41,627 bases of DNA from Bacteroidaceae bacterium (GTDB lineage Bacteria > Bacteroidota > Bacteroidia > Bacteroidales > Bacteroidaceae): NCBI GenBank assembly GCA_017616445.1, contig JAFZYE010000038.1:1-41627 (forward strand), in the 5' to 3' direction. Positions 1,158 through 41,126 of the stretch are shown here, piece by piece. Position 1 is the first letter of the stretch, and every line of letters begins with the position of its first letter. The position numbers and the translations under genes are program-made. The notes under the pieces are model-generated. The model was not told the origin of the DNA and did not search any database. It worked only from the letters and a program-made list of their open reading frames with translations.

Positions 1158-1163
1158 AAGACA

Positions 1164-1271
1164 GTTAGGAGTTAGGAGTTAGGAGTTAGGAGTTAACAGC
1201 TCCGCTCCTCTCCTGACTGGCGAAACAAAACCTACTAGCCAACTAAACTATTAACCAATTAACCTAATAAC
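1164..1271. repeat. GTTAGGA heptad array and 8-base phased tract
   Basis: Four exact GTTAGGA heptads occupy 1164-1191, starting seven bases after the stop codon of the HU-like gene. Further on, about 1236-1271 consists of words such as TATTAACC, AATTAACC and TAATAACC spaced 8 bases apart, running up to the 3' end of purT. No gene or convincing terminator is visible between the two convergent genes. Confidence 0.75.
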
Positions 1272-4182: not shown

Positions 4183-4258
4183 TTCATTCTTTCATTCTTC
4201 CATTTTTCATTTTTTCTTAACTCTTAATTCTTAATTCTTAACTTTTTTTGTACCTTTG
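4183..4258 (+). promoter_or_regulatory. relA promoter preceded by heptad array
   Basis: TACCTTTG at 4251-4258 is the -7 element. Directly upstream, four heptads occupy 4216-4243 (CTTAACT, CTTAATT, CTTAATT, CTTAACT) where a -33 element would lie. Before those comes an 8-base phased T-rich stretch (TTCATTCT repeated, from 4183). No canonical -33 TTTG is present at the expected distance, so the heptads replace or obscure it. Confidence 0.6.
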
Positions 4259-4284
4259 CACAAGATTTGAAAAGGAGGGGAAAC

Positions 4285-6495
4285 ATGAATGCACAAACAG
4301 AGCAAATAATAGAAACCTTGCAAAGGGTTGAGAAGCTCACAGCTGAGATCATCAACAAGACCGAGCAAGACACCATAAGAAAACTGATTCTTGAAAAGAG
4401 CAAAGAAATCAGCCAGCAGACAGAGATTGAACGAGTATTCGGCCTGAATCCTGTGTTGTTTGACTTGCAGACCACCCTTATCACAATAGAAGAGATAGGA
4501 GTGAGTCGTGCCGTCATCATCAGCACCATGCTCCACGAGTATGTACATCGTGGGGTAATCACGGAAAACGAGATTAGCACGATGTTTGGCGAAGAGGTGT
4601 CGAAAATCATTCATGGTCTCTTGAAAGTGAACGAACTCTATGCGAAAAGCACAAGTGTAAACACAGATAACTACCGCGATCTGATGCTTTCGTTTGCTGA
4701 GGACATGAGGGTTATCTTCATCATCATAGCAGACCGTGTGAACCTCATGCGTCAGATAAAAGACCTGGGTAGTGACGAGGCTCGTCAAAAAGTGGCCAAG
4801 GAAGCCAGTTTCCTCTATGCACCTTTGGCTCATAAACTCGGTCTATACCTGATTAAATCAGAACTTGAAGACTTATCGCTAAAATACTTGGAGACAGAAA
4901 GTTTCTACATGCTAAAAGAGAAGTTGAACGCCACCAAGAAAGCACGCGATGAGTATATCCATAAGTTCATCACCCCTATTGAGGAAAAGTTGCAGGCTGC
5001 CGGACTGAAATTCCATATCAAAGGACGTACGAAGAGCATACACTCCATCTGGCAGAAGATGCAGAAACAGAAATGTCAGTTCGAAGGAATCTACGACCTT
5101 TTTGCCATCCGTATCATCCTCGATTCCAAGCCCGAACGCGAAAAGCAGGACTGCTGGCAGGTGTATAGCATCGTGACAGACATGTATCGCCCGAACCCGA
5201 AACGTCTGCGCGACTGGCTCAGCGTACCCAAGAGTAACGGATATGAGAGCCTGCACACCACTGTGATGGGCCCTGAAGGCAAATGGGTAGAGATACAGAT
5301 TCGTACGGAGCGGATGGACGATATCGCCGAACACGGATTGGCCGCCCATTGGAGATATAAAGGAGTAAAAGATAGCGGAGCTAAGTTGGAGGACTGGCTG
5401 AAAGACGTACGTAGCGCATTAGAGACCCAGGGAACATCGGATGAGCAGATGGTTGACCCGTTCAAGGTGGACCTCTACAGCGATGAGGTATTTGTGTTCA
5501 CGCCGAAAGGCGACCTGTTCAAGTTGCCCAAGGGGGCTACCCTACTCGACTTCGCCTACCAGATTCACACAAATATAGGTTCACACTGTAGCGGAGGACT
5601 CATTAACGGGAAGAATGTGTCCGTACGCACCAAACTCCAGACTGGCGACCAAGTCGAGATTCTCACCAATCCCAACCAGTTGCCTAAACGCGACTGGCTC
5701 AATTATGCCATCACATCAAAGGCACGCAGCAAGATTCGCCAAAGCATCAACGAACAGGAACTGAAGACTGCCACCTATGCGAAGGAGACACTTGAGCGTA
5801 AGTTCAAGAACAAGAAGCTGGAGATGGTGGAACCAACGCTGATGAAGACCATCAAACGACTGGGATTCAAGCATGTGATGGAGTTCTACAAAGCCCTCAC
5901 GGAAGAGGTGCTGGGGGTGGACAAAGTGATTGATGCCTATATTGAGGAACAGAAACGTGAGAACAACGAACTGCCCCTTGCTGAGACCATCAGCGCCGAG
6001 AACTTCCACTTAGACGAAGGAAACGAAAACCTGATGGGTCGTTCCGGTAAGGACGTGCTGCTGATTGGTAATAATATAAAAGGTGTGGAATACAACCTCG
6101 CCAAATGCTGCAATCCTATCTATGGTGACGAGATCGTAGGATTTGTGACAGTGAGCCGAGGTATCACCATTCACAGGAAGAGTTGTCCGAACTGTCGCAG
6201 GCTGCTTGAGCAGATGTCCTATCGTGCCATCGAGGTGAACTGGGCCGAACAGAGCAGCGGCATGTTTGCCATCACCCTGCATATCATCGGAAATGATGAT
6301 GTGGGTATCGTGAGCAACATCACAAGCATCATCGCCAAGGAGAAGAACATCCTGCTTCGCAGCATCGACATCAAATCATCGGAGGACGGCCTCTTCGCCG
6401 GTCACCTCACCATCATGATTGATGACAACAAACGCCTCAATCAACTGATTAAGAAGATTCAAGCGGTGAAAGGCGTAAAGAATGTGACGAGATAG
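4285..6495 (+). CDS. relA: RelA/SpoT-family (p)ppGpp synthetase with degenerate hydrolase domain
   Basis: A 736-residue long RelA/SpoT homolog that makes the stringent-response alarmone (p)ppGpp. Domain order: N-terminal HD-type region (to about residue 190), synthetase (about 230-345), TGS (about 385-445), a Cys-containing linker domain (about 600-655) and a C-terminal ACT domain (about 660-736). Synthetase motifs NGYESLHTTV and EIQIRTE (E336) are intact, and the loop RLRD (307-310) is of the basic RxKD class. In the N-terminal domain the usual HD pair reads H84-E85, the following ED pair is lost, and ADRxHNM reads ADRVNLM. Hydrolase activity is therefore probably absent. The start is ATG 4285, chosen for the strong AGGAGGGG at 4273-4280; an in-frame TTG at 4267 overlaps that site and is rejected. 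rlmH follows. Confidence 0.93.
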   Translation: MNAQTEQIIETLQRVEKLTAEIINKTEQDTIRKLILEKSKEISQQTEIERVFGLNPVLFDLQTTLITIEEIGVSRAVIISTMLHEYVHRGVITENEISTMFGEEVSKIIHGLLKVNELYAKSTSVNTDNYRDLMLSFAEDMRVIFIIIADRVNLMRQIKDLGSDEARQKVAKEASFLYAPLAHKLGLYLIKSELEDLSLKYLETESFYMLKEKLNATKKARDEYIHKFITPIEEKLQAAGLKFHIKGRTKSIHSIWQKMQKQKCQFEGIYDLFAIRIILDSKPEREKQDCWQVYSIVTDMYRPNPKRLRDWLSVPKSNGYESLHTTVMGPEGKWVEIQIRTERMDDIAEHGLAAHWRYKGVKDSGAKLEDWLKDVRSALETQGTSDEQMVDPFKVDLYSDEVFVFTPKGDLFKLPKGATLLDFAYQIHTNIGSHCSGGLINGKNVSVRTKLQTGDQVEILTNPNQLPKRDWLNYAITSKARSKIRQSINEQELKTATYAKETLERKFKNKKLEMVEPTLMKTIKRLGFKHVMEFYKALTEEVLGVDKVIDAYIEEQKRENNELPLAETISAENFHLDEGNENLMGRSGKDVLLIGNNIKGVEYNLAKCCNPIYGDEIVGFVTVSRGITIHRKSCPNCRRLLEQMSYRAIEVNWAEQSSGMFAITLHIIGNDDVGIVSNITSIIAKEKNILLRSIDIKSSEDGLFAGHLTIMIDDNKRLNQLIKKIQAVKGVKNVTR

Positions 6496-8343: not shown

Positions 8344-8517
8344 AAAGTTGATAGTTGATAGTTTATAGTCAGTCGCATGAGTCGAAAAATGAGACATTAG
8401 ACTTTAGACGCTAGACTTTAGACATTAGCGAGTTGAAAGTTTACAGTCGAAAGTAAAGAGTTGCAAGGGAAAAGTGAAAAAAATTATTCATTATACATTA
8501 TAAATTATAAATTATTT
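8344..8517. repeat. Heptad-phased intergenic tract upstream of tRNA-Ser
   Basis: Most of this 174-base stretch is built of 7-base words. It holds GTTGATA, GTTGATA, GTTTATA (8347-8367); five ACnnTAG words (8394-8428); seven words mostly starting AGT (8431-8479); then five ATTATnn words (8483-8517). The first part (8346-8373) is identical over 28 bases to 34741-34768 near apbE. The tract ends one base before the -7 element of the tRNA promoter. No ORF of consequence lies here. Confidence 0.8.
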
Positions 8518-8518
8518 G

Positions 8519-8526
8519 TATCTTTG
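8519..8526 (+). promoter_or_regulatory. -7 promoter element of tRNA-Ser
   Basis: TATCTTTG matches TAnnTTTG, 11 bases before the first base of the mature tRNA, so the primary transcript would have a leader of only a few bases. The -33 position is occupied by the ATTATnn heptad array. Confidence 0.65.
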
Positions 8527-8536
8527 CAGCCTGAAT

Positions 8537-11441: not shown

Positions 11442-13514
11442 ATGAAAAGAAACATTACGCTTATCATTGCTCTGATGGCAACAATGCTGACCAGCATCGT
11501 TCACGCACAGAATCCAAAATTGTCTGAACTGACCATCGTTGATAAGGTGGAAGTCGCTCTCACGGCTACAGAAGCCCGACACAACAACTCCTCACAAAGA
11601 GTTTCTGTTGACCTTACGGAAGCTTTATCAAAGTTGGGAGGCAGTGGGCTGGGAATGGCACTCCACAAGTTCTACATTGCTCAATATGACTCTATCTCAG
11701 AAGGAAAACTGGACGAACTGACCAGCACATATAACTATCGTGAAGGTTGGTGGTTAACAGAAATCTATGATGAGAACATCGGAGAAATGACAGGTGAATG
11801 TGTGGCAGATACCACCATCCAATCACAGATGTATGTACGTGCCCCACAACTTGACGACAAACAGTTGGATGTAACTATTGGACAAGTTGGTGGACAGTTA
11901 ACGCCAGGAAAGACCTATAGGACTTCACTCTATTATATCAACGGCAATAAGGCGATAGAGATATGCATCAGTCTCACCACACAGGAAGCGCCAGCAATCA
12001 AATTGTCAGAATTGATGAAAGCAGGCGAGGAGAACGCATCATTTAACGTTTACTATAATGGCTCCTATAAGTACCGTCAGCTGCTGCTCAACGCAGATTC
12101 AATTTATCAGGCGCTCTATCATCAATTACCGTTGCCTGACTGTGTGGGCTACGAAGAAGGTCTGAATTGGGGAGAGGCACAAGGTCTTGTTCTCTATGCA
12201 ACGGGTGACGAGAACACCCTAACAGACTACTCTACAGCCAACTATGGTGGCTATTGGTTGAACACAAACGGCTTTGCGTGTGAGTGGGGAGCAACAGGAT
12301 GCGCTATGTTCTGCGAACCCGATTACTATGCAGGTCTGTCTAATCTCCATGTAGGTATTTTTCCCGATCGTTCGCTCATCGACACAACAGTCAAGTCGAC
12401 CCTCTATCTCGTGTGTGGCAACCTCTACTACCAGCTGAACATCAAAGTTGCGATTGGCCCTCAGCCTTCATTCGCGGAGTGTGCAACTGTTGCAGAAATC
12501 AACTATGCAATGGAAATGGTGCCCATCCATAAAGGTGGCGAAGAATTGTTACAAGAGGAATACATGATAGACGCGATTGACCTGACTGACATCATCAGCA
12601 ACACGTTCGAAGCAGACGACATTACTTTCTGCACTCCTGTATTCGTACCTGGTACGGGCTATAGCTTAATGCCTTCTGCGACAAATATTACAGGAACAGT
12701 CATCAGTAATGCTGTAGGTTATATGAACGGTTACCAAATGACCGATATACGCGCTCTTGCTGAAGAAGACAATTCATTCATACATGTTGCAGCTCCATTC
12801 AACCCATCCATTCCAATTCTTACGATTGCGTATGGAATCGGTTATAAAGACGGAAAGCTCAGCTTCTGGCAAAAGGACGGAGTGCGTGAGGTGGGCGACT
12901 ACTACACAGCCGAGTTCTATCTGTACAGCCTTGATGACAAAACAAAAGTGAAGCTGAACATCAACGTCATCTATGTGAGTGAACGCAACCCAGTAGCTAT
13001 CGTGAAGACAACTGACATCACCCTACCAGCATGGAATGCAGATAAAAGTGATTATGCAGCAACGAAATACGACCTGTCAGAGGTACTTGACTCACTCCAG
13101 TGTGACGATGCAGGCAAGATTGTCTGGATGGCCTACAATCAACTATATCAGTTAACCAGACCTTCAGACTATGATGATCTGTATGGATTTGTACTCACCA
13201 GCAACGGTCGTCTGTTACCAGAAGACTTCAACGGAGCAGTATTCAATGTGGGATATACAGACGGAGAGTTCCATTCGTTTGTGCTGAATCCTTCGTTCGA
13301 TTCAGAACTCACGACAGCTATCGTTGCGACCTACAACGGAAAAGGCTACCGATTCGATATCAAAGTAACCTCTGCACCTGATACGGGTATATCAGAGGTG
13401 AGAGGTGAGAGGTTAGAGGTGAGAGACAGCTTCTATAACCTTGCCGGTCAGCACCTATCTGTTCCACAAAAGGGTCTAAATATCATCAACGGAAAGAAAG
13501 TACTAATAAAATAA
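11442..13514 (+). CDS. Second secreted DUF4859-like repeat protein
   Basis: A 690-residue exported protein, probably a paralogue of its upstream neighbour. It has a signal peptide (MKRNITLIIALMATMLTS, cleavage after VHA), about four beta-rich units, and a C-terminal tail SFYNLAGQ...[14 protein letters not shown]. Shared features include units ending in VTIGQVGGQL-like or KLNINVIYVSE strands, and a last unit with LPAWNADKSDYAATKYDLSEVL that matches the corresponding unit of the first protein (LPARDANDQENG...YDLTPMY). The linker before the tail, EVRGERLEVRD, is encoded by a heptad repeat (13395-13422). No promoter is visible before the downstream GH43 gene, suggesting cotranscription. Function is unknown; surface or extracellular polysaccharide binding is a guess. 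Confidence 0.72.
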   Translation: MKRNITLIIALMATMLTSIVHAQNPKLSELTIVDKVEVALTATEARHNNSSQRVSVDLTEALSKLGGSGLGMALHKFYIAQYDSISEGKLDELTSTYNYREGWWLTEIYDENIGEMTGECVADTTIQSQMYVRAPQLDDKQLDVTIGQVGGQLTPGKTYRTSLYYINGNKAIEICISLTTQEAPAIKLSELMKAGEENASFNVYYNGSYKYRQLLLNADSIYQALYHQLPLPDCVGYEEGLNWGEAQGLVLYATGDENTLTDYSTANYGGYWLNTNGFACEWGATGCAMFCEPDYYAGLSNLHVGIFPDRSLIDTTVKSTLYLVCGNLYYQLNIKVAIGPQPSFAECATVAEINYAMEMVPIHKGGEELLQEEYMIDAIDLTDIISNTFEADDITFCTPVFVPGTGYSLMPSATNITGTVISNAVGYMNGYQMTDIRALAEEDNSFIHVAAPFNPSIPILTIAYGIGYKDGKLSFWQKDGVREVGDYYTAEFYLYSLDDKTKVKLNINVIYVSERNPVAIVKTTDITLPAWNADKSDYAATKYDLSEVLDSLQCDDAGKIVWMAYNQLYQLTRPSDYDDLYGFVLTSNGRLLPEDFNGAVFNVGYTDGEFHSFVLNPSFDSELTTAIVATYNGKGYRFDIKVTSAPDTGISEVRGERLEVRDSFYNLAGQHLSVPQKGLNIINGKKVLIK
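13395..13422 (+). repeat. In-frame coding heptad array (GAGGTGA)
   Basis: Four tandem 7-base units inside the second DUF4859-like gene: GAGGTGA, GAGGTGA, GAGGTTA, GAGGTGA. They encode the linker SEVRGERLEVRD between the last domain and the tail. The TGA in units 1, 2 and 4 is out of frame; in unit 3 it would be in frame at 13413, and there the sequence is TTA. Confidence 0.85.
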
Positions 13515-27864: not shown

Positions 27865-27910
27865 AATTGTTAATTTAGAATTGTCAATTATCAATAATTT
27901 ACTATATTTG
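27865..27910 (+). promoter_or_regulatory. GH10 promoter overlapped by heptad array
   Basis: TATATTTG at 27903-27910 is the -7 element, with TTG at 27881-27883 at 19 bases. Five 7-base words (AATTGTT, AATTTAG, AATTGTC, AATTATC, AATAATT; 27865-27899) run through the -33 region and end three bases before the -7 element. Transcript start is near 27916, about 34 bases before ATG 27950. Confidence 0.7.
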
Positions 27911-27949
27911 CAGTTCGAATAGATAATTACCAATTAAAAATTTAAGGAT

Positions 27950-30624: not shown

Positions 30625-31197
30625 ATGGTAACTGCCAAAGGGAAACCACAGCCGGAGAAAATCATCATGGGCATTGACCCTGGTTCGAATCTGATGGGAT
30701 ATGCCATCCTTCGTACGAAGGGCAACAAAGCCGAGATGCTGGCATTCGGTGTGATTGAGTTGAGGAAATATGAGAGCCACTACCTGCGACTGGGAAAAAT
30801 CCACGAGCGGGTGACAAGCATCATCGACTCCTACCATCCCGACGAAGTTGCCATAGAGGCACCGTTCTACGGAAAGAATGTACAGAGTATGCTGAAACTG
30901 GGACGCGCGCAGGGAGTGGCCATTTGTGCTGCCATCCAGCGCGACATCCCTATCAGCGAATACGAGCCGACACGCATCAAGGTGGCCATCACAGGTAATG
31001 GTGCGGCATCGAAGGAACAGGTTGCTGCGATGCTGCAACGGATGCTGAACATCAGCGATGAAATCATGCACATTCAGCTGGATGCAACAGATGCGTTAGC
31101 GGCAGCTTATTGCCACTTTATCCAAATGGGGAAGCCTGAGCAATCAGGGAAGAAGACCACTTGGAAAGAGTATGCGAAGAAGCTGGGGAAGATATAG
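30625..31197 (+). CDS. ruvC: Crossover junction endodeoxyribonuclease RuvC
   Basis: A 190-residue Holliday-junction resolvase acting with RuvAB in homologous recombination and repair. Acidic catalytic residues are in place: D18 (GIDPGS), E78 (VAIEAPF), D153 and D156 (LDATDAL). Length is normal for Bacteroidales. The gene follows the xylanase stop by 11 bases with no promoter or terminator visible between, so readthrough from the xylanase promoter is likely. A heptad repeat array begins at the last base of its TAG stop codon. Confidence 0.95.
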
Positions 31198-31266
31198 TTA
31201 GGAGTTAGGAGTTAAGAGTTAGGAGTTAGAAGTTAGGAGTTAGAAGCTAGAAGTTAGGAGACAGGA
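31197..31266. repeat. Ten-unit heptad array filling the ruvC-DUF4199 gap
   Basis: Ten consecutive 7-base units: GTTAGGA (x2), GTTAAGA, GTTAGGA, GTTAGAA, GTTAGGA, GTTAGAA, GCTAGAA, GTTAGGA, GACAGGA. They run from the last base of the ruvC stop to the base before the DUF4199 ATG at 31267. The units carry AGGA/GGAG, so the array may also supply ribosome-binding sequence. Confidence 0.9.
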
Positions 31267-34734: not shown

Positions 34735-34856
34735 GTTTATAGTTGATAGTTGATAGTTTATAGTCAGTTTATAAAGTTGATAGTATAAAGTTTATTATGC
34801 ATTATGAATTGGCTAAAGTCTAAAGTCTAACTCCTAACTTCTAACTCCTAACTCAT
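34735..34856. repeat. Heptad-phased tract and left inverted repeat of the apbE flank
   Basis: Words of 7 bases dominate: GTTTATA, GTTGATA, GTTGATA, GTTTATA (34735-34762), then after short breaks GTTTATA, GTTGATA, GTATAAA, then nine heptads in one phase from 34794 to 34856 (ATTATGC, ATTATGA, ATTGGCT, AAAGTCT x2, AACTCCT, AACTTCT, AACTCCT, AACTCAT). Bases 34753-34810 are the exact reverse complement of 36084-36141. There is no clear promoter for apbE in this gap. Confidence 0.9.
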
Positions 34857-34860
34857 TAAT

Positions 34861-35955
34861 ATGTCAATTCTCAAGAAGCTATACGACGACATGGATCGTC
34901 AACTCGATAAGAAAGCAGAGCCACACAAGATACGTTGGTGGCACATCATCCTCCTGCTCGCACTCATCGCAGGAACCATCTATATCATGAACTCCCCAAA
35001 ACCCAACAAAGGAGGGACAACCGTCGATAAGGAAACATTCCTGAAGTGCGAGGGCGAGGTGTTCGGCACCTTCTACCACATCACCTATCAATACCCCAAC
35101 GACCTGCAAGACAGCATCGAGGCCACGTTGCGACAGGTCGATGGTTCGCTCTCTCCATTCAACAAGGAGTCGGTCATCACAGCCATCAACAACGGCACCA
35201 GCGACGCTACGGATGAGATGTTCCGCGAGGTGTTCACGCTCGCCAAACAAGTGTCGGCAGAGACCGATGGTGCCTTCGACATCACGGTAGCCCCATTGGT
35301 CAATGCATGGGGATTCGGCTTTAAGAACAAAGAGAATGTGACAGACACACTCATCACCCGTCTGCTTACCCACGTGGGAATCGACAAGGTCACCTTGCAG
35401 GACAACCGTCTTGTCAAAGCCGACTCTGCCGTCATGCTCGATTGCAGCGCTATCGCCAAAGGCTATGGTGTCGATGCAGTAGGACGTATGCTCGAATCGA
35501 AACAAATCAGCAACTACATGGTCGAAATCGGAGGCGAAGTCCGAGTACGAGGCCATAACCCACAGGGTTCGTCGTGGAATATCGGCATCATCAAACCCAT
35601 ACCCGACGTGACAGGCACCCAGACAGAACTGCAACAGGTGTTGCACCTCACAGACATCTCGATGGCCACATCGGGCAACTACCGCAACTACTACGAGCAA
35701 GGCAACAAACGCTATGCCCACACCATCGACCCACGTACAGGCTACCCTGTTCAGCACAGCATCCTCTCCAGCACCGTCCTGACCACCGATTGTGCTACTG
35801 CCGATGCCTACGCCACCGCATTCATGGTCCTCGGCCTCGATAGCGCACAAGCCGTACTCAACCGTCATCCCGAACTCAAAGCCTACTTCATCTATTCCGA
35901 TGACAATGGCAACAATGCCACATGGCATACTGAGAACCTTGTAATAGAGGAGTAG
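34861..35955 (+). CDS. apbE: FAD:protein FMN transferase ApbE, membrane-anchored
   Basis: A 364-residue enzyme that attaches FMN from FAD to Thr/Ser of exported proteins, such as Na+-NQR and Rnf subunits. One membrane segment (about residues 28-45) anchors it with the catalytic domain outside. Family motifs are intact: DGSLSPFNKES, DCSAIAKGYGVD, VEIGGEVRVRGHNP, HTIDPRTGYPV and the metal-binding TTDCATADAYATAF. The gene is bracketed by 58-base perfect inverted repeats and mirrored heptad arrays. Its TAG stop is the first unit of the downstream array. No target flavoprotein gene is nearby. Confidence 0.94.
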   Translation: MSILKKLYDDMDRQLDKKAEPHKIRWWHIILLLALIAGTIYIMNSPKPNKGGTTVDKETFLKCEGEVFGTFYHITYQYPNDLQDSIEATLRQVDGSLSPFNKESVITAINNGTSDATDEMFREVFTLAKQVSAETDGAFDITVAPLVNAWGFGFKNKENVTDTLITRLLTHVGIDKVTLQDNRLVKADSAVMLDCSAIAKGYGVDAVGRMLESKQISNYMVEIGGEVRVRGHNPQGSSWNIGIIKPIPDVTGTQTELQQVLHLTDISMATSGNYRNYYEQGNKRYAHTIDPRTGYPVQHSILSSTVLTTDCATADAYATAFMVLGLDSAQAVLNRHPELKAYFIYSDDNGNNATWHTENLVIEE

Positions 35956-36162
35956 GAGTTAGGAGTTAGAAGTTAGAAGTTAGGAGTTAGAAGTTAGGAG
36001 TTAGGAGTTAGGAGTTAGGAGTTAGGAGTTAGGAGTTAGAAGTTAGGAGTTAGGAGTTAGACTTTAGACAATGCATAATGCATAATTCATAATGCATAAT
36101 AAACTTTATACTATCAACTTTATAAACTGACTATAAACTATACACTATCAACTTTACTCAAT
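35953..36162. repeat. Long heptad-phased tract with word switching
   Basis: From the apbE stop codon onward, consecutive 7-base units keep one phase to at least 36127: fifteen TAGGAGT/TAGAAGT units, then TAGACTT, TAGACAA, TGCATAA x2, TTCATAA, TGCATAA, TAAACTT, TATACTA, TCAACTT, TATAAAC. Similar spacing continues to about 36162. This and the next 145 bases form a 352-base gap with no gene. Confidence 0.9.
36084..36141. repeat. Right 58-base inverted repeat flanking apbE
   Basis: Perfect reverse complement of 34753-34810. The pair encloses apbE in a segment of about 1.39 kb. Homologous recombination or a recombinase acting on the pair would invert the gene relative to its neighbours. Confidence 0.9.
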
Positions 36163-36222
36163 AACAATTCAGATGTTAAAAAACGCCAAATATCGTCTCA
36201 TTTAGTCGTTGATGCATTAATT

Positions 36223-36267
36223 ATTATACATTTTACATTATACATTCTACATCTTTTTGTATCTTTG
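36223..36267 (+). promoter_or_regulatory. Promoter of the small secreted protein, preceded by heptads
   Basis: TATCTTTG at 36260-36267 is the -7 element, about 41 bases before ATG 36308. Four heptads (ATTATAC, ATTTTAC, ATTATAC, ATTCTAC) at 36223-36250 cover the region where a -33 element would be; no TTTG is present there. Confidence 0.65.
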
Positions 36268-36307
36268 CAACCGAAGAAACGAAAACAAAACTAAAAATAC
36301 AATCAAC

Positions 36308-36802
36308 ATGAACAGAATTATCGTAACAATCATGATGGTAGCCGCTTCGTCCTACATGACGTTGAGCGCACAGACCCTTTACAAGAAAGTATTTGACAAC
36401 GCAACAGCAGTCGTCAACAATGCTGCATCGAACGATCAGCAGATTCAGATCAACCAGTATAAGATTACTGTCCTCAACTACATCTCCAATCAGGTGAAGA
36501 AACGTGGTCTGACCAAGGACACCTATTTCTATGACTCACAGGCAGTCAATCTCGCATCGTTCATCACCGACTTCGAGACCTATATCATCAAGGCAAGAGC
36601 CATCTCATCCGAGAAGCGCCTCGAGGTCATTGCATGCTATCGCGACGCATCACTCAACAACCCTCTGTTCAACGACTCAGACAAGGAGACCACCTATGTC
36701 TATGTGAACGACAAGCAGACCTACACCCCATTCTCGCTCGACACAGACTGGGAGAAAGCTTACGATCAGGCAACAGAAAAGATAAAGACCATCATCAAGT
36801 AA
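36308..36802 (+). CDS. Small secreted protein of unknown function
   Basis: A 164-residue exported protein. ATG 36308 is taken because it directly gives a signal peptide (MNRIIVTIMMVAASSYMTLS, cleavage near SAQ); the in-frame ATG at 36257 lies before the -7 element. The mature part is mostly helical and polar, with NYISNQVKKRGLTKDTYFYDSQAVN and a C-terminal EKAYDQATEKIKTIIK. I do not recognise the family. It is followed 2 bases later by the Bcp gene, so the two form an operon. Confidence 0.75.
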   Translation: MNRIIVTIMMVAASSYMTLSAQTLYKKVFDNATAVVNNAASNDQQIQINQYKITVLNYISNQVKKRGLTKDTYFYDSQAVNLASFITDFETYIIKARAISSEKRLEVIACYRDASLNNPLFNDSDKETTYVYVNDKQTYTPFSLDTDWEKAYDQATEKIKTIIK

Positions 36803-37328: not shown

Positions 37329-40300
37329 TTAATGGCTTCGGATGAATTCGTAAATCATGAGGATGTCTTGCGTGTCAACCGAGCCGTCACCATTTACGTC
37401 CTCTCTTCCACCATTGGCTTCGCTGCCAACAGTCTTCATGTAGTCGTATATCATGAGCACATCCTGGGTGTCGGTTGTTTCGTCGCAGTTCACATCGCTA
37501 TTGTCGTACTTCCTTTCCGAGAAGTAGCCCGGAGCCTCCGTTCCGCCGTCAAGACGGGCGTAGGTCGCATCAACTTTTGAGCTGTCGAACTTCGTTCCTT
37601 CGTTGCCCACCAGCAGTTTGCAGTTGAAGAACATATTGGTGGTCTGTGCGCTCGTGTTGCTCCAGTCGTTCGTGCAGTAGATGTTCTTCAGTCCCCAGCA
37701 GCCTCCGAACATCATCCGCATGTCCTCCACCTTGCTGATGTCGAACGAAGTGAGGTCAACCGTCTCGAGTGCTGTGCTGCCGCTGAACATTTGGTTCATG
37801 TTCGTTACGTTCTTGGTGTTGAACGATCTGAGGTCGAGCGAAGTCAACGACTGGCACATATAGAACATGCAGTACATATCCGTCACAGTCGAGGTGTTGA
37901 GGTTCTCCAGTCCCTCGATGGTTTTCATCTTATCCAAGATTAGTGATTTCATGTTGTAGCCGCCATAGAACATCTTCCTCATCGATGTCAGCTTGGCATC
38001 CTTCATCGATGGGTCGATGACTGCCTTCACAACCTTGCTCGCATAGCCCTTGAAGCGTGCTGAATCAGGGAGATAGACTTCCACGACACCTGGCCGCTGA
38101 ATCAGCTTGGAGTCGTAGTAATAGGTCAGCGTGCCGGTAGCGAGTTCGAATACTGTTGTTACCACTCCGTCGCCTTTTAAGTATCGAGCCGTCACGACGG
38201 TATTCCCCATGATGGCATCGAACTGCTTGTCCCATCCGATGAAGACGTAGCCCTCGTGTTCAGGCACTTCGGGTTCTGTTGCCGCTCCGCCGTACTCGAT
38301 GTTCTGCGTGTTAATCTCTCCGTCTGTACAGCCGTCCACGAACCGTACCGAATATGTTGCAGTCTTATATTGTGCCGTAACGGTCAGGTCGCTCTGGATG
38401 TTGCTGAAGTCCTTGTCCCAGCCGGTGAAGTCGTATCCTTCGCGTGTCGGGTCTTCGGGTGCTTGAGCAGTCTTGCCTTGCTCCACCTGTTCCGTCTTCA
38501 GCTCCATGCCGTCGTAGTCCTCGAAGGTGACGGTATAGATGGGTTTCATCTCCACGATGCTGAAGTCCTTCCATTTCTCTGCTTTCTGATAGGCCGTGCG
38601 TGTGCCGGCTGGCACATAGAGCGTAATCAGAGCCAGTTCCTCTTTGGTCCAATAGCTGAATGCGTGGGAAAGTCCTGATATATCTACCGGCTGCTGCGTG
38701 TAGCAATAGATGTTCTGCAAGTCAGAGCAATACTTGGTCAGGAAATAGTCCTGAATGGAATATACGGTACTCGGGATGTTAAGCGTCTTGAGCGCTTGCA
38801 TATAGTCGATAGCACCCGCGCAGATACATTCCAGGCCTTCGGGCAGTTCCAGTTTGGTGATGCTATAGTCAGCGTTGGCACCGCAGAAGGCGTATGAAGC
38901 AATCAGGCGCGTGCCTTCCCTCACATGGAAGGTGCCGCTTGTATAGTTCGGCTCGTGATAGAGCAGGCAATCGTCGTAATAGACCGAATGCTGCGCGTTC
39001 ATGTTGTTCGCGAAGAGAGGAGTCCCTTCGAATGCCGTATAAGACAAGTGCTCCAATGTGCCCGGGATGTTGATTTCTTGTAGGTTCGAATTCTTGAAGG
39101 CATAAACATCAATCTCATCCATAATCTTTGGCAGGATAACCTTCGTGACATTCTTGGCGTTGGCAAAGGCGTATGCTCCTACGGCATTCACCTTGTATTC
39201 ATAGCCTTGATACCATACGACATCCTCTACCGTCACTTCGCCGCTCAGATCTTTGTAGTTGTTGGCATCGTTCTCCTTCTCGTAGGTGACTTCTGCTGTG
39301 TAATCCTCATGGATCTGGTAGTACAGGTCGCCGTATTTGATTTTCAGGTTCACGCCTGTCTCGCGGATGTCCTTAAAGTCTTTCCAAACGGCAGCGTTGG
39401 AGTAAGCGTTTTTGCTGCCTCCTGGGACATAAAGGATACATGTGGATTTATGTACTCCGTTGAAAACATTGTTAGTGCCCGATAAATCCACCGGTGTGTT
39501 GCGTTCGCATTTAATAGATTGCAAGCCATTACAGCCATGAAATGCCATTTCTTCAATAGAACTGACATTTGCAGGAATGGTGATGGTTGATAAACTTGAA
39601 CAACCCGAAAAAGCAAAACTCTCAATCTTTGTTACGGCAGATGGTATCTTGACGTTTTTCAGTTGAGCACATTTGAAGAAACAACTATTCGGTATGGTCG
39701 TAATACCTGCCGGTAACCTGACGGAGGTCAAAGCCGCACAATTCTCAAATACACTACTGCCAAGTGAAGACACCGTAGAAGGAAGGGAAATGGATGTGAT
39801 ACCTGTGCCAGCAAATGTAGAGTGTCCTATTTTCTCCAAAGATGCGGGTAGGGTGACGCTCGTTAATGCGGAACAACCACTGAAAGTACGGTTTGGTAGT
39901 TCTGTTATAGTAATTGGCAAAACGGCTTTGGTCAGTTTCGTACAACCCTCAAACACCACTTGATCCATTGCCGTTACGGTATAGGTATATTCTCCATAGT
40001 TAACCGACGAGGGTACTGTCAGTTCGCCGCTCAGGTTCTTGTTGTCGGCGTGCTTTTTGACGGTTGCCGTCAAATCTTCGTGCAGGTCATAATAGAGGTT
40101 GCCGATTTTCTGCACGCCGGTGGTAATGGACGGCACAATCACGATTTCTTCGCTATCTCCTCCTTCTCCGCCAATCTCTTCGCCTTCCTCAACGATAACA
40201 CCGAAATTCTTCCACACTTCTGCGGATTTATACGCAGCCTTGCAGCCCTTGGGGACAATCAGCACACAACCGGCCAAATTCACACCAGAGAACACAGATG

Positions 40301-41126
40301 TATTTGTCGAGGGAGGTACCGTTCGCAGTACTTTCAGTTCTTTCAGACCTGTATTTGCAAAAGCATAGGAACCGATGGAGGCTACTGTAGCTGGAAGCGT
40401 CACTCTTTCCAACAACGAGCAATTATAGAATGCTTTCTGAGCGATTCCGGCCAATGATTTTGCCTTATGTAAGGTAATATTTGACAAGTTAGAACAATTC
40501 GCAAATGCATGTTCTCCTATAAACGTTACTCCATTCGCGCCCCAAACGTTTTTTAAGCTTGTACAACCTTTGAAAGCACTTGTACCTATAGTCGTAACCG
40601 TTGCAGGAATCAAAATCTCTGGCAAAGCACTACAATCTTGAAATGTTCCATATTCTATTCTGTTAAGTGAATTGGGAAGGATGACCTTTTTCAAGCCGGT
40701 ACAATTTAAGAAAGCCGCCTGTCCTAATTTCGATAGACCTTCCTGAATATTTATCCTCGTCAAGCCAGTAGCATTCAAAAACGCATACCCCTCGATTGTT
40801 TTAAGGGTAGTTGGAGTGGTGAGAGAAAACATATTGGATTGCTTTTCGAAAACATTATGATAGATGATTGTAACAGGAACGTTCCTTCCATTATATCTAA
40901 AATAAGCAGGCATTTCAATATCTCCGGACACATTGTACGCTTTTGAAACATACATATTAGGCTCGCGACCATCAATTAATTCATACTTGATTCCATCTTG
41001 AGTCACTCCCCATGCCTTTGCATCCACAGTCGGCAACATCGCCATCACGCAGCATAGTGCTGTAATAATAAATGAGGAAAAACTTTTCATAGTCTTTTTA
41101 TTTGTAGGAGTCATTGTTTTGTTCAT
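37329..41126 (-). CDS. BspA-like leucine-rich repeat surface protein with dockerin-like C-terminus
   Basis: A 1265-residue exported protein. A signal peptide (hydrophobic SFIITALCCVMAMLPTVDAKA) is followed by three large modules (starting near residues 39, 339 and 592). Each has a beta header and then BspA-type leucine-rich repeats (xxIxxxAFxxCxxLxxVxIP), ending in a VP.G...AY....WK.F segment. Two InlB-type B-repeats follow (about 860-985, EGYDFTGWDKDF and EGYVFIGWDKQF), then a DUF285-like region (about 1000-1185, NTSTVTDMYCMFYMCQSLTSL) and a C-terminal pair of calcium-loop repeats (about 1204-1265, DVNCDETTDTQDVL and DVNGDGSVDTQDIL) typical of type I dockerin-like modules. BspA proteins bind host matrix or other bacteria. 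ATG 41126 is used; ATG 41090 gives a more compact signal peptide. Confidence 0.9.
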   Translation of the reverse strand: MNKTMTPTNKKTMKSFSSFIITALCCVMAMLPTVDAKAWGVTQDGIKYELIDGREPNMYVSKAYNVSGDIEMPAYFRYNGRNVPVTIIYHNVFEKQSNMFSLTTPTTLKTIEGYAFLNATGLTRINIQEGLSKLGQAAFLNCTGLKKVILPNSLNRIEYGTFQDCSALPEILIPATVTTIGTSAFKGCTSLKNVWGANGVTFIGEHAFANCSNLSNITLHKAKSLAGIAQKAFYNCSLLERVTLPATVASIGSYAFANTGLKELKVLRTVPPSTNTSVFSGVNLAGCVLIVPKGCKAAYKSAEVWKNFGVIVEEGEEIGGEGGDSEEIVIVPSITTGVQKIGNLYYDLHEDLTATVKKHADNKNLSGELTVPSSVNYGEYTYTVTAMDQVVFEGCTKLTKAVLPITITELPNRTFSGCSALTSVTLPASLEKIGHSTFAGTGITSISLPSTVSSLGSSVFENCAALTSVRLPAGITTIPNSCFFKCAQLKNVKIPSAVTKIESFAFSGCSSLSTITIPANVSSIEEMAFHGCNGLQSIKCERNTPVDLSGTNNVFNGVHKSTCILYVPGGSKNAYSNAAVWKDFKDIRETGVNLKIKYGDLYYQIHEDYTAEVTYEKENDANNYKDLSGEVTVEDVVWYQGYEYKVNAVGAYAFANAKNVTKVILPKIMDEIDVYAFKNSNLQEINIPGTLEHLSYTAFEGTPLFANNMNAQHSVYYDDCLLYHEPNYTSGTFHVREGTRLIASYAFCGANADYSITKLELPEGLECICAGAIDYMQALKTLNIPSTVYSIQDYFLTKYCSDLQNIYCYTQQPVDISGLSHAFSYWTKEELALITLYVPAGTRTAYQKAEKWKDFSIVEMKPIYTVTFEDYDGMELKTEQVEQGKTAQAPEDPTREGYDFTGWDKDFSNIQSDLTVTAQYKTATYSVRFVDGCTDGEINTQNIEYGGAATEPEVPEHEGYVFIGWDKQFDAIMGNTVVTARYLKGDGVVTTVFELATGTLTYYYDSKLIQRPGVVEVYLPDSARFKGYASKVVKAVIDPSMKDAKLTSMRKMFYGGYNMKSLILDKMKTIEGLENLNTSTVTDMYCMFYMCQSLTSLDLRSFNTKNVTNMNQMFSGSTALETVDLTSFDISKVEDMRMMFGGCWGLKNIYCTNDWSNTSAQTTNMFFNCKLLVGNEGTKFDSSKVDATYARLDGGTEAPGYFSERKYDNSDVNCDETTDTQDVLMIYDYMKTVGSEANGGREDVNGDGSVDTQDILMIYEFIRSH

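Follow-up and report, generated by a model that had tools for sequence, protein, structure and literature searches.

Heptad arrays in intergenic DNA of a Bacteroidaceae bacterium and a candidate promoter slot of about 32 bp

The 7-base periodic run at positions 35953-36162, directly downstream of apbE in the window (the whole analyzed stretch of 41,627 nucleotides), is on balance best explained as an array that grew by units and was partly copied, period 7 being special in this lineage by way of a heptad promoter slot of ~32 bp that replaces the -33 TTTG element. Many likely promoters would carry, upstream of the -7 box TAnnTTTG, an array of ~4.5 heptads (~32 bp) at about -38 to -6 in place of -33 TTTG, and period 7 would owe its standing in the lineage to these arrays. 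The word in the slot appears to be free; length, position, and a TTNNNAA-like register (AATT approximately every 7 bp) recur. Arrays outside the slot may be unconstrained relatives drawn from overlapping words. We observed a species-specific expansion of the word TTAGGAG, the heptad slot itself, exclusion of the -33 TTTG from it, and different words at orthologous boxes.

Sequence data

The genome assembly comprises 81 contigs (2.38 Mb, 70% complete). Our sample of it, 435 kb, was drawn from array-bearing contigs in which TTAGGAG was known to occur, and all densities and rates given for this genome are therefore upper estimates. Genes were called by a simple purpose-made script, and the -7 boxes are motif matches. 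Same-genus genomes and individual loci are denoted by G and L numbers, respectively.

Structure of the array downstream of apbE

The following features surround and constitute the run:

34741..34853, minus strand: inverted copy of the composite array, upstream of apbE, with 58 bases identical to the downstream copy
34861..35955, plus strand: apbE, ApbE family PF02424, between two inverted composite arrays (Pfam, orthologous gaps)
35948..36060, plus strand: stop-adjacent heptad array, TTAGGAG/TTAGAAG (TRF, sequence, lag profile)
36061..36160, plus strand: composite tail with changing words, TTAGACT, AATGCAT/AATTCAT, then AAACTTT/ACTATCA/ACTATAA (sequence, TRF, lag profile)

As described in the sequence-only reading that drew attention to this region, the heptads start at the apbE stop codon (TAG at 35953-35955) and their 7-base period is real: lag-7 identity over 35953-36162 is 0.768 versus 0.22-0.27 at lags 5, 6, 8, 9, and 10, with 0.745 and 0.656 at the multiples 14 and 21. 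In the 352-bp gap between apbE and the next gene (ATG at 36308), the top lag-7 score is 109, compared with a maximum of 13 among 2000 dinucleotide shuffles. TRF reports period 7 with 16.3 copies of AGGAGTT and 93% matches at 35948-36060, an array overlapping the final apbE codons and the TAG stop. In the tail past it (36062-36170) lag-7 identity is 0.578, none of 2000 shuffles equals the score of this tail, and TRF finds 4.4 copies of AATGCAT at 36070-36100 and 3.4 copies of a period-7 unit at 36130-36153; the final 70 bases (36101-36170) are only modestly periodic (0.508 versus 0.341, p = 0.0055). In 28-base blocks, identity declines with distance from the stop codon, with a maximum of 1.00 (36004) and a value of 0.45 at 36144, so that the period is strongest where the word stays constant. 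The tail also contains, with 2 mismatches, a dispersed 20-base core, CTGACTATAAACTATACACT, at 36127-36146.

The sequence-only reading further held that the word changes along the run without loss of phase. For the beginning of the array the word does not change, since the first 16 units are a single word with G/A variants, and their common phase is thus ordinary. For unlike words, we collected from the stretches of this genome adjoining lag-7 arrays, each of at least 14 bases and at most 14 bases apart, whose in-register words differ; five of the 39 junctions found were dropped because their best identity exceeded 5 of 7. Among the remaining 34 junctions, the common register was best or tied in 7 (6.9 expected), and in-register identity averaged 2.0 of 7, versus 1.8-2.3 in the other six registers. 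The claim that phase survives a change to an unlike word thus has no general support, and the junction test speaks against a genome-wide phase code.

Period 7 in intergenic DNA

Both outcomes on which the sequence-only reading had made its claim depend came out in favor of the period in the sampled stretches: shuffled DNA yields no phase runs of comparable length, and the rest of the genome has a 7-base peak, intergenic autocorrelation at lag 7 being 0.320 versus 0.269 in shuffled sequence (z = 43, 10 shuffles) and 0.249 in coding DNA. Lag-7 segments are mainly intergenic, 108 in 74 kb of intergenic DNA versus 6 in 360 kb of coding DNA. The same 74 kb contain 69 segments at lag 14; 20, 8, 11, and 5 at lags 8, 9, 11, and 15; and 0, 0, 1, 0, 0, and 0 at lags 4, 5, 6, 10, 12, and 13, with at most 0.3 in shuffles. 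Seven is the dominant repeat period of the sampled intergenic DNA. Periods 8, 9, and 11 are also over-represented there, and 4, 5, 6, 10, 12, and 13 are near absent. The heptads of the sample fall into 29 canonical words, mostly AT-rich.

Two locations stand out among 135 lag-7 segments of the sample: 34 lie no more than 15 bp past a stop codon, where random placement would put 6.1, and 24 are directly next to a -7 box, where it would put 4.7. Among the 20 listed stop-adjacent TTAGGAG arrays (18 genes), 4 run into the coding end. Two further arrays of the window lie next to stop codons:

1163..1195, plus strand: TTAGGAG array, 5 bp past the stop of gene 285-1157, between convergent genes (TRF)
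31196..31266, plus strand: heptad array filling the gap from a stop codon (ending at 31197) to the next start (31267) (TRF, ORFs)

A separate rule of outward polarity for TTAGGAG (18 of 23 clusters near stops and 19 of 22 near starts, within 100 bp) was rejected; by eye, this polarity seems to be largely explained by the two locations, with the word in sense orientation after stops and on the reverse strand upstream of -7 boxes. G-quadruplexes were set aside because the heptad words, inspected by eye, have no G-runs. Three heptads make two helical turns; lag 21 was likewise set aside as a helical signal, because codon-like periodicity contaminates multiples of 3.

Several other repeats were noted. 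In Paludibacteraceae (7 loci among L103-L137, 13 kb of intergenic DNA), lag-11 segments outnumber lag-7 segments, 7 to 3, hinting that other lineages favor other periods. Heptad arrays of AGAGGTT/AGAGGTG inside reading frames produce 7-residue protein repeats such as EVRGERL; they occur in L160:2353-3306 (gene segment 675-733), whose protein we take to be RibF, and in the window at 13394-13425, near the end of gene 11442-13514. Close to several array ends (L016, L028, L035, L014, L159) there are C-rich and G-rich hairpin-like strings, CCCCCTAAAGGGGGTTGGGGGGTC for example; they constitute another dispersed repeat, possibly a terminator. Finally, positions 37329-41126 of the window (minus strand) encode a protein of 1265 residues in which BspA-type leucine-rich repeats are combined with Listeria-Bacteroides repeats and a dockerin domain.

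Heptad arrays upstream of candidate promoters

The slot was found from the flanks of 59 TTAGGAG arrays, many of which end just upstream of TAnnTTTGC. The promoter of sigma-ABfr, the Bacteroides primary sigma factor, is given in the available excerpt of PMC7366714 as a -7 element TAnnTTTG and a -33 element TTTG; we regard the TAnnTTTGC boxes as candidate sigma-ABfr promoters, a function suggested by the motif and its location. The boxes examined sit ahead of start codons and tRNA genes. By construction, every slot promoter has the -7 box TAnnTTTG, as it was the selection criterion. Noncoding boxes were scored by lag-7 matches in positions -38 to -9, with a threshold of 15 of 23. It was reached by 59 of 174 boxes, versus 1.5 in shuffles; under the identical rule, lags 5, 6, 8, 9, and 10 gave 0, 0, 6, 1, and 0 boxes. 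After removal of the 27 loci that had been chosen for the arrays themselves, 32 of 127 boxes have a heptad slot (0.7 expected from shuffles); these stand on 29 arrays, as three pairs have a common array, and three of the boxes carry the TTAGGAG word. Control sites scored far lower: a set of 209 permuted decoy motifs gave 111 of 2752, and sampled noncoding positions gave 1912 of 41865. One permuted motif, TT..GCATT, was high (12 of 54), and is taken to hit the ATGCATT arrays themselves. ARAGORN detected 11 tRNAs, 7 of them with a box and full upstream sequence; 5 score at least 15, one 13, and one 7, two of the five high-scoring promoters coming from loci chosen for arrays.

In the window the slot and its boxes are represented by:

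4214..4243, plus strand: slot array of TTCTTAA words, with box TACCTTTGC at 4251-4259 and gene 4285-6495 (TRF, slot scan)
8481..8515, plus strand: slot array of AATTATA words, with box TATCTTTGC at 8519-8527, ahead of a tRNA-Ser gene (TRF, ARAGORN)
27865..27897, plus strand: weaker slot array, AATTGTC-like, 16 of 23 lag-7 matches, with box TATATTTGC at 27903-27911 (slot scan)
36222..36254, plus strand: slot array of ACATTNT words, 19 of 23 lag-7 matches, upstream of the gene starting at 36308 (TRF, slot scan)
36260..36268, plus strand: candidate -7 box TATCTTTGC of the same gene (sequence, slot scan)

Position, length, and register of the slot arrays

The 58 slot arrays measured, chosen as ending within 16 bp of a box and with unconstrained starts, begin at a median of -37 (interquartile range -38 to -36) and end at -6 (-6 to -4). 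Their median length is 32 bp (interquartile range 30-33, 10th-90th percentile 26-34); 207 other arrays have a median of 31 bp, a 10th-90th percentile range of 21-54, and lengths of up to 185 bp. The -33 TTTG, sought at -27 to -20 relative to the box, is found at 0 of 59 heptad boxes versus 41 of 115 others (p = 2.4e-9); in the non-heptad promoters it often starts at -24 or -23 from the box.

In slot promoters T is favored at -36/-35, -29/-28, -22/-21, -15/-14, and -8/-7, and A at -31/-30, -24/-23, -17/-16, and -10/-9. This holds for a set of one promoter per in-register word (n = 44), selected from 86 promoters with 30 canonical words in this and related genomes. The phase is coherent from word to word (R 0.58, Rayleigh p 4.5e-7) and also when only relatives are considered (R 0.65, p 1e-5), both statistics ignoring kinship. 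Non-heptad promoters are phase-coherent too, with R 0.37 versus 0.58. The TTNNNAA score is 3.3 for slot words, nearly equal at 3.0 for words of free arrays, and 2.5 for random ones. That units of one slot resemble each other more (2.54 of 3 N positions) than units of different promoters (1.00) follows from the selection rule and proves nothing. The TTNNNAA skeleton reads the same on both strands, in keeping with the finding that L020, L026 (two arrays), L152, and L219 have arrays common to two divergent boxes.

Distribution in the genus, family, and phylum

In stretches from 16 congeners 27 of 224 boxes qualify, two of them on one array, and array density ranges from 0 to 14.6 per 10 kb in these small samples. 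The stretches of G011, G012, G016, G013, and G006 come largely from contigs with a core match, so that their rates, too, are upper estimates. Those of G010, G001, G002, G005, G007, G009, G014, and G015, mostly small, contain no qualifying boxes. In whole genomes, the strict pattern (AATTNNN)4 plus box occurs throughout the 7 drawn from the genus, this one included, at 9 to 84 sites per genome. The counts for G010, G001, G003, G009, and G015 are 9 to 40; thus, as G010, G001, G009, and G015 demonstrate, an empty sample does not equal absence.

The family was searched with at most 3 mismatches and the phylum with at most 2, so that the two sets of counts are not directly comparable. The strict pattern occurs in 47 of 121 genomes of the family (17 of 30 genera), and 20 genomes of 7 genera have at least 9 sites, the maximum being 84; species of one genus differ sharply. 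Reversed-pattern controls are mostly 0 (8 versus 56 sites in this genome), yet there are genomes of the family with as many control matches as sites or more, e.g. 10 versus 3 in G101. In the phylum search this genome has 27 sites (control 4), and 147 other genomes, none of its own family, have 0-2.

Words at orthologous promoters

The upstream regions of four genes, ychF and ribF (names presumed from the protein sequences) and the genes starting at 36308 and 4285, were compared across the genus under the same slot rule. Leaving out 5 loci with incomplete upstream sequence and 11 without a box, a heptad slot is present at 14 of 40 evaluable loci, this genome counted for each gene: 3 of 9 for 36308, 6 of 10 for ychF, 4 of 10 for ribF, and 1 of 11 for 4285. 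At the remaining loci there is a TTTG element, or neither this nor heptads, or a period of 8 or close to 8 (lag-8 matches 18 in G013, 19 in G012, and 14 in G011, of 23).

The ychF slot is filled by TTCTTAA-type words in this genome (19 of 23), a mixture of AATTATG and TAAATGG in G013 (18), AAATAGT in G011 (18), and AATTATG in G012 (20), at proteins 96-98% identical, with box-to-start distances of 27-28 and slot identities of 0.51-0.76. Similarly, the ribF words are ACATTTT here (20), AATTACC-like in G011 (17), AATTATG in G004 (21), where the box is farther from the start, and AAACTCT in G012 (20), and those of gene 36308 are ACATTNT here (19), TAAATGG in G016 (17), and ATTATGA in G012 (16). 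Slot identity averages 0.55 (range 0.41-0.76) in 15 orthologous heptad pairs versus 0.57 in 33 non-orthologous pairs. The 15 pairs draw on 11 of the 14 heptad promoters, leaving out gene 4285, of which only the copy in this genome has heptads, and the ychF promoters of G003 and G015, with 111 and 67 bases between box and start.

Origin of the array downstream of apbE

The run at 35953-36162 would be a recently inserted or expanded period-7 simple-sequence array directly after the apbE stop, which grew as entire 7-base units were duplicated or lost and single bases were now and then substituted, and its word-changing tail would be a copy of a composite array present elsewhere, including in inverted form across apbE. 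The composite exists in two near-identical copies, one on either side of the gene. The 20-base core has 40 occurrences in the genome at up to 2 mismatches, with variable flanks; a further copy, CTGACTATAAACTATCAACT at 8353-8372 on the minus strand, lies within another repeat region of the window:

8346..8428, minus strand: AGTTGAT and AGACATT arrays (TRF, core search)

Doubled TTAGGAG (TTAGGAGTTAGGAG) has 131 overlapping matches in this genome versus 0-2 in 16 same-genus genomes. The orthologous gaps after apbE measure 144 (L059), 149 (L061), and 140 bp (L079), all lacking a stop-adjacent array; the L059 gap is array-free, and those of L061 and L079 have a heptad array of different words further downstream, in the promoter slot. 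The composite with its inverted copy is absent from the orthologous gaps read. Relatives of apbE at 76-84% identity come from metagenome-assembled genomes, mostly rumen, named Bacteroidales, Prevotellaceae, or Bacteroidaceae, which suggests that the organism is Prevotella-like and lives in the rumen. The inverted composites at 34741-34853 and 35948-36160 could support inversion of apbE; neighbor genes have the same orientation in the closest orthologous apbE loci read.

Unit-wise growth with composite copying between sites is the simplest account of this array. Since duplication or loss of whole units and substitution keep the period, a copying mechanism working in 7-base steps, one of two causes put forward in the sequence-only reading, is unneeded for this run. 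The other, selection for a contact every 7 bases, finds support at promoter-like sites and none at the run itself.

Interpretation and alternative explanations

From the sequence we infer that boxes with a heptad slot are working promoters. The slot is presumably held by selection, through contact of RNA polymerase or a partner every 7 bp; most likely, its length, start, and register are held because whatever binds at -38 to -6 benefits from an AATT-like step once per 7 bp. The units within an array would be homogenized by slippage or exchange, and free arrays, including that after apbE, probably draw on the same word pool as the slots. The fuller form of this reading, to which we give slightly less than an even chance, is a Prevotella-like promoter class read by spacing, in which ~4.5 TTNNNAA-like heptads at -38 to -6 replace the -33 element, the words are rewritten blockwise by concerted evolution with period, length, and register kept, and the array after apbE is an overgrowth from the same pool.

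Chance low complexity of AT-rich intergenic DNA, which this DNA indeed is, deserves practically no credence, being refuted by dinucleotide-preserving shuffles that give almost none of these arrays. A purely mutational origin is rather improbable: replication would slip preferentially by 7, as in the polymerase-contact idea credited to Mrazek et al. (2007) in PMC4679880, arrays would persist where harmless, and the slot would be just a tolerated place. That seven dominates outside promoters too, and that free arrays, while varying widely in length, match the slot arrays in median, is what slippage would give; the tightly placed starts of the slot arrays relative to the box and the exclusion of the -33 element are not, and congeners range from none to many arrays in small samples, though their polymerase should be alike. 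Dispersal by descent, with mobile or recombining promoter cassettes and composites whose size and order reflect copying and not function, is unlikely; it would account for the 58 identical bases of the composite inverted around apbE, the 40 copies of the core, near-identical AACTCCT promoter cassettes, and the sudden species-specific expansion of a single word. It does not readily produce 30 canonical words over 86 promoters in one slot, some of them one base apart, or orthologous heptad promoters no more alike than unrelated ones.

Binding of the arrays, independently of RNA polymerase, by a regulator or nucleoid protein whose monomers each contact a single 7-bp unit would agree with the narrow size, the self-complementary TTNNNAA skeleton, and single arrays serving two divergent boxes (L020, L026 twice, L152, L219). 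The many words inside one genome argue against such a protein, and we hold this, too, to be improbable. On balance, a promoter slot with free words is preferred. Promoter recognition is usually described in terms of particular sequences at particular spacings; here, upstream sequences of close species differ widely while the 7-base period and the ~32-bp length recur. This makes it a testable question if periodicity as such can be used by the sigma factor or RNA polymerase of the phylum.

Comparison with known heptamer repeats and promoters

Heptamer repeats as such are already known. The sequence-only reading named those of filamentous cyanobacteria as the only comparable case, which is too narrow: the excerpts available describe heptamer arrays in Xanthomonas (GGGAATC) and in Calothrix and Nostoc (PMC4692102), and in Beggiatoaceae, cyanobacteria, and five Bacteroidetes (PMC4679880). 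The arrays studied here, that after apbE included, resemble the known heptanucleotide simple sequence repeats in having tandem 7-base units in several copies and in being mainly intergenic, and sister species differ in them, as seen in same-genus genomes and orthologous gaps. Likewise, as far as the excerpt of PMC4692102 extends, the Calothrix/Nostoc and Xanthomonas repeats are intergenic tandem 7-base units with variant words, which vary in length and sequence among close relatives and are sometimes inverted between convergent genes. What differs here is the presence of 29 canonical words in the sample of one genome, mostly AT-rich and without G-runs, and of a class that varies little in length and is tied to -7 boxes. 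The excerpt of PMC4679880 credits Mrazek et al. (2007) with the observation that, among the long repeats of most genomes, no class is more abundant than heptanucleotides, and with their explanation by polymerase contact; our results bear on why seven is a favored unit of long bacterial repeats, the subject of that idea.

The TAACTGA direct repeats of Beggiatoaceae, cyanobacteria, and some Bacteroidetes share with our arrays the period and the intergenic location, and other heptamers occur in intergenic regions of some Bacteroidetes; in the same excerpt they are a single word, mostly just upstream of start codons, with a proposed translational role (PMC4679880). Our slot arrays, in contrast, lie upstream of the -7 box, and TAACTGA is absent from the 29 canonical words of our sample. 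The sites of SARP-LAL regulators have a repeat spacing of about 11 bp, whereas the units here abut at 7 bp and their words are free. Common to both are heptamer direct repeats at promoters, in Streptomyces for the former (PMC5930380, in excerpt). The length of our slot arrays is narrow across words and species, unlike that of the phase-variable repeats of Haemophilus influenzae. The hmw promoters of this bacterium contain heptamers. Tandem repeats in promoters are again the common feature, being phase-variable there according to the excerpt of PMC2651432.

Among the literature matches listed on Bacteroidetes or Prevotella heptad promoters and arrays, no description of a heptad promoter slot with free words was found. 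Also among the closest known systems is the canonical sigma-ABfr promoter (PMC7366714, in excerpt), with which our candidates share the -7 box and, in the non-heptad promoters, often a TTTG at -24/-23; the heptad promoters differ from it in having, in place of the -33 TTTG (0 of 59), about 4.5 heptads.
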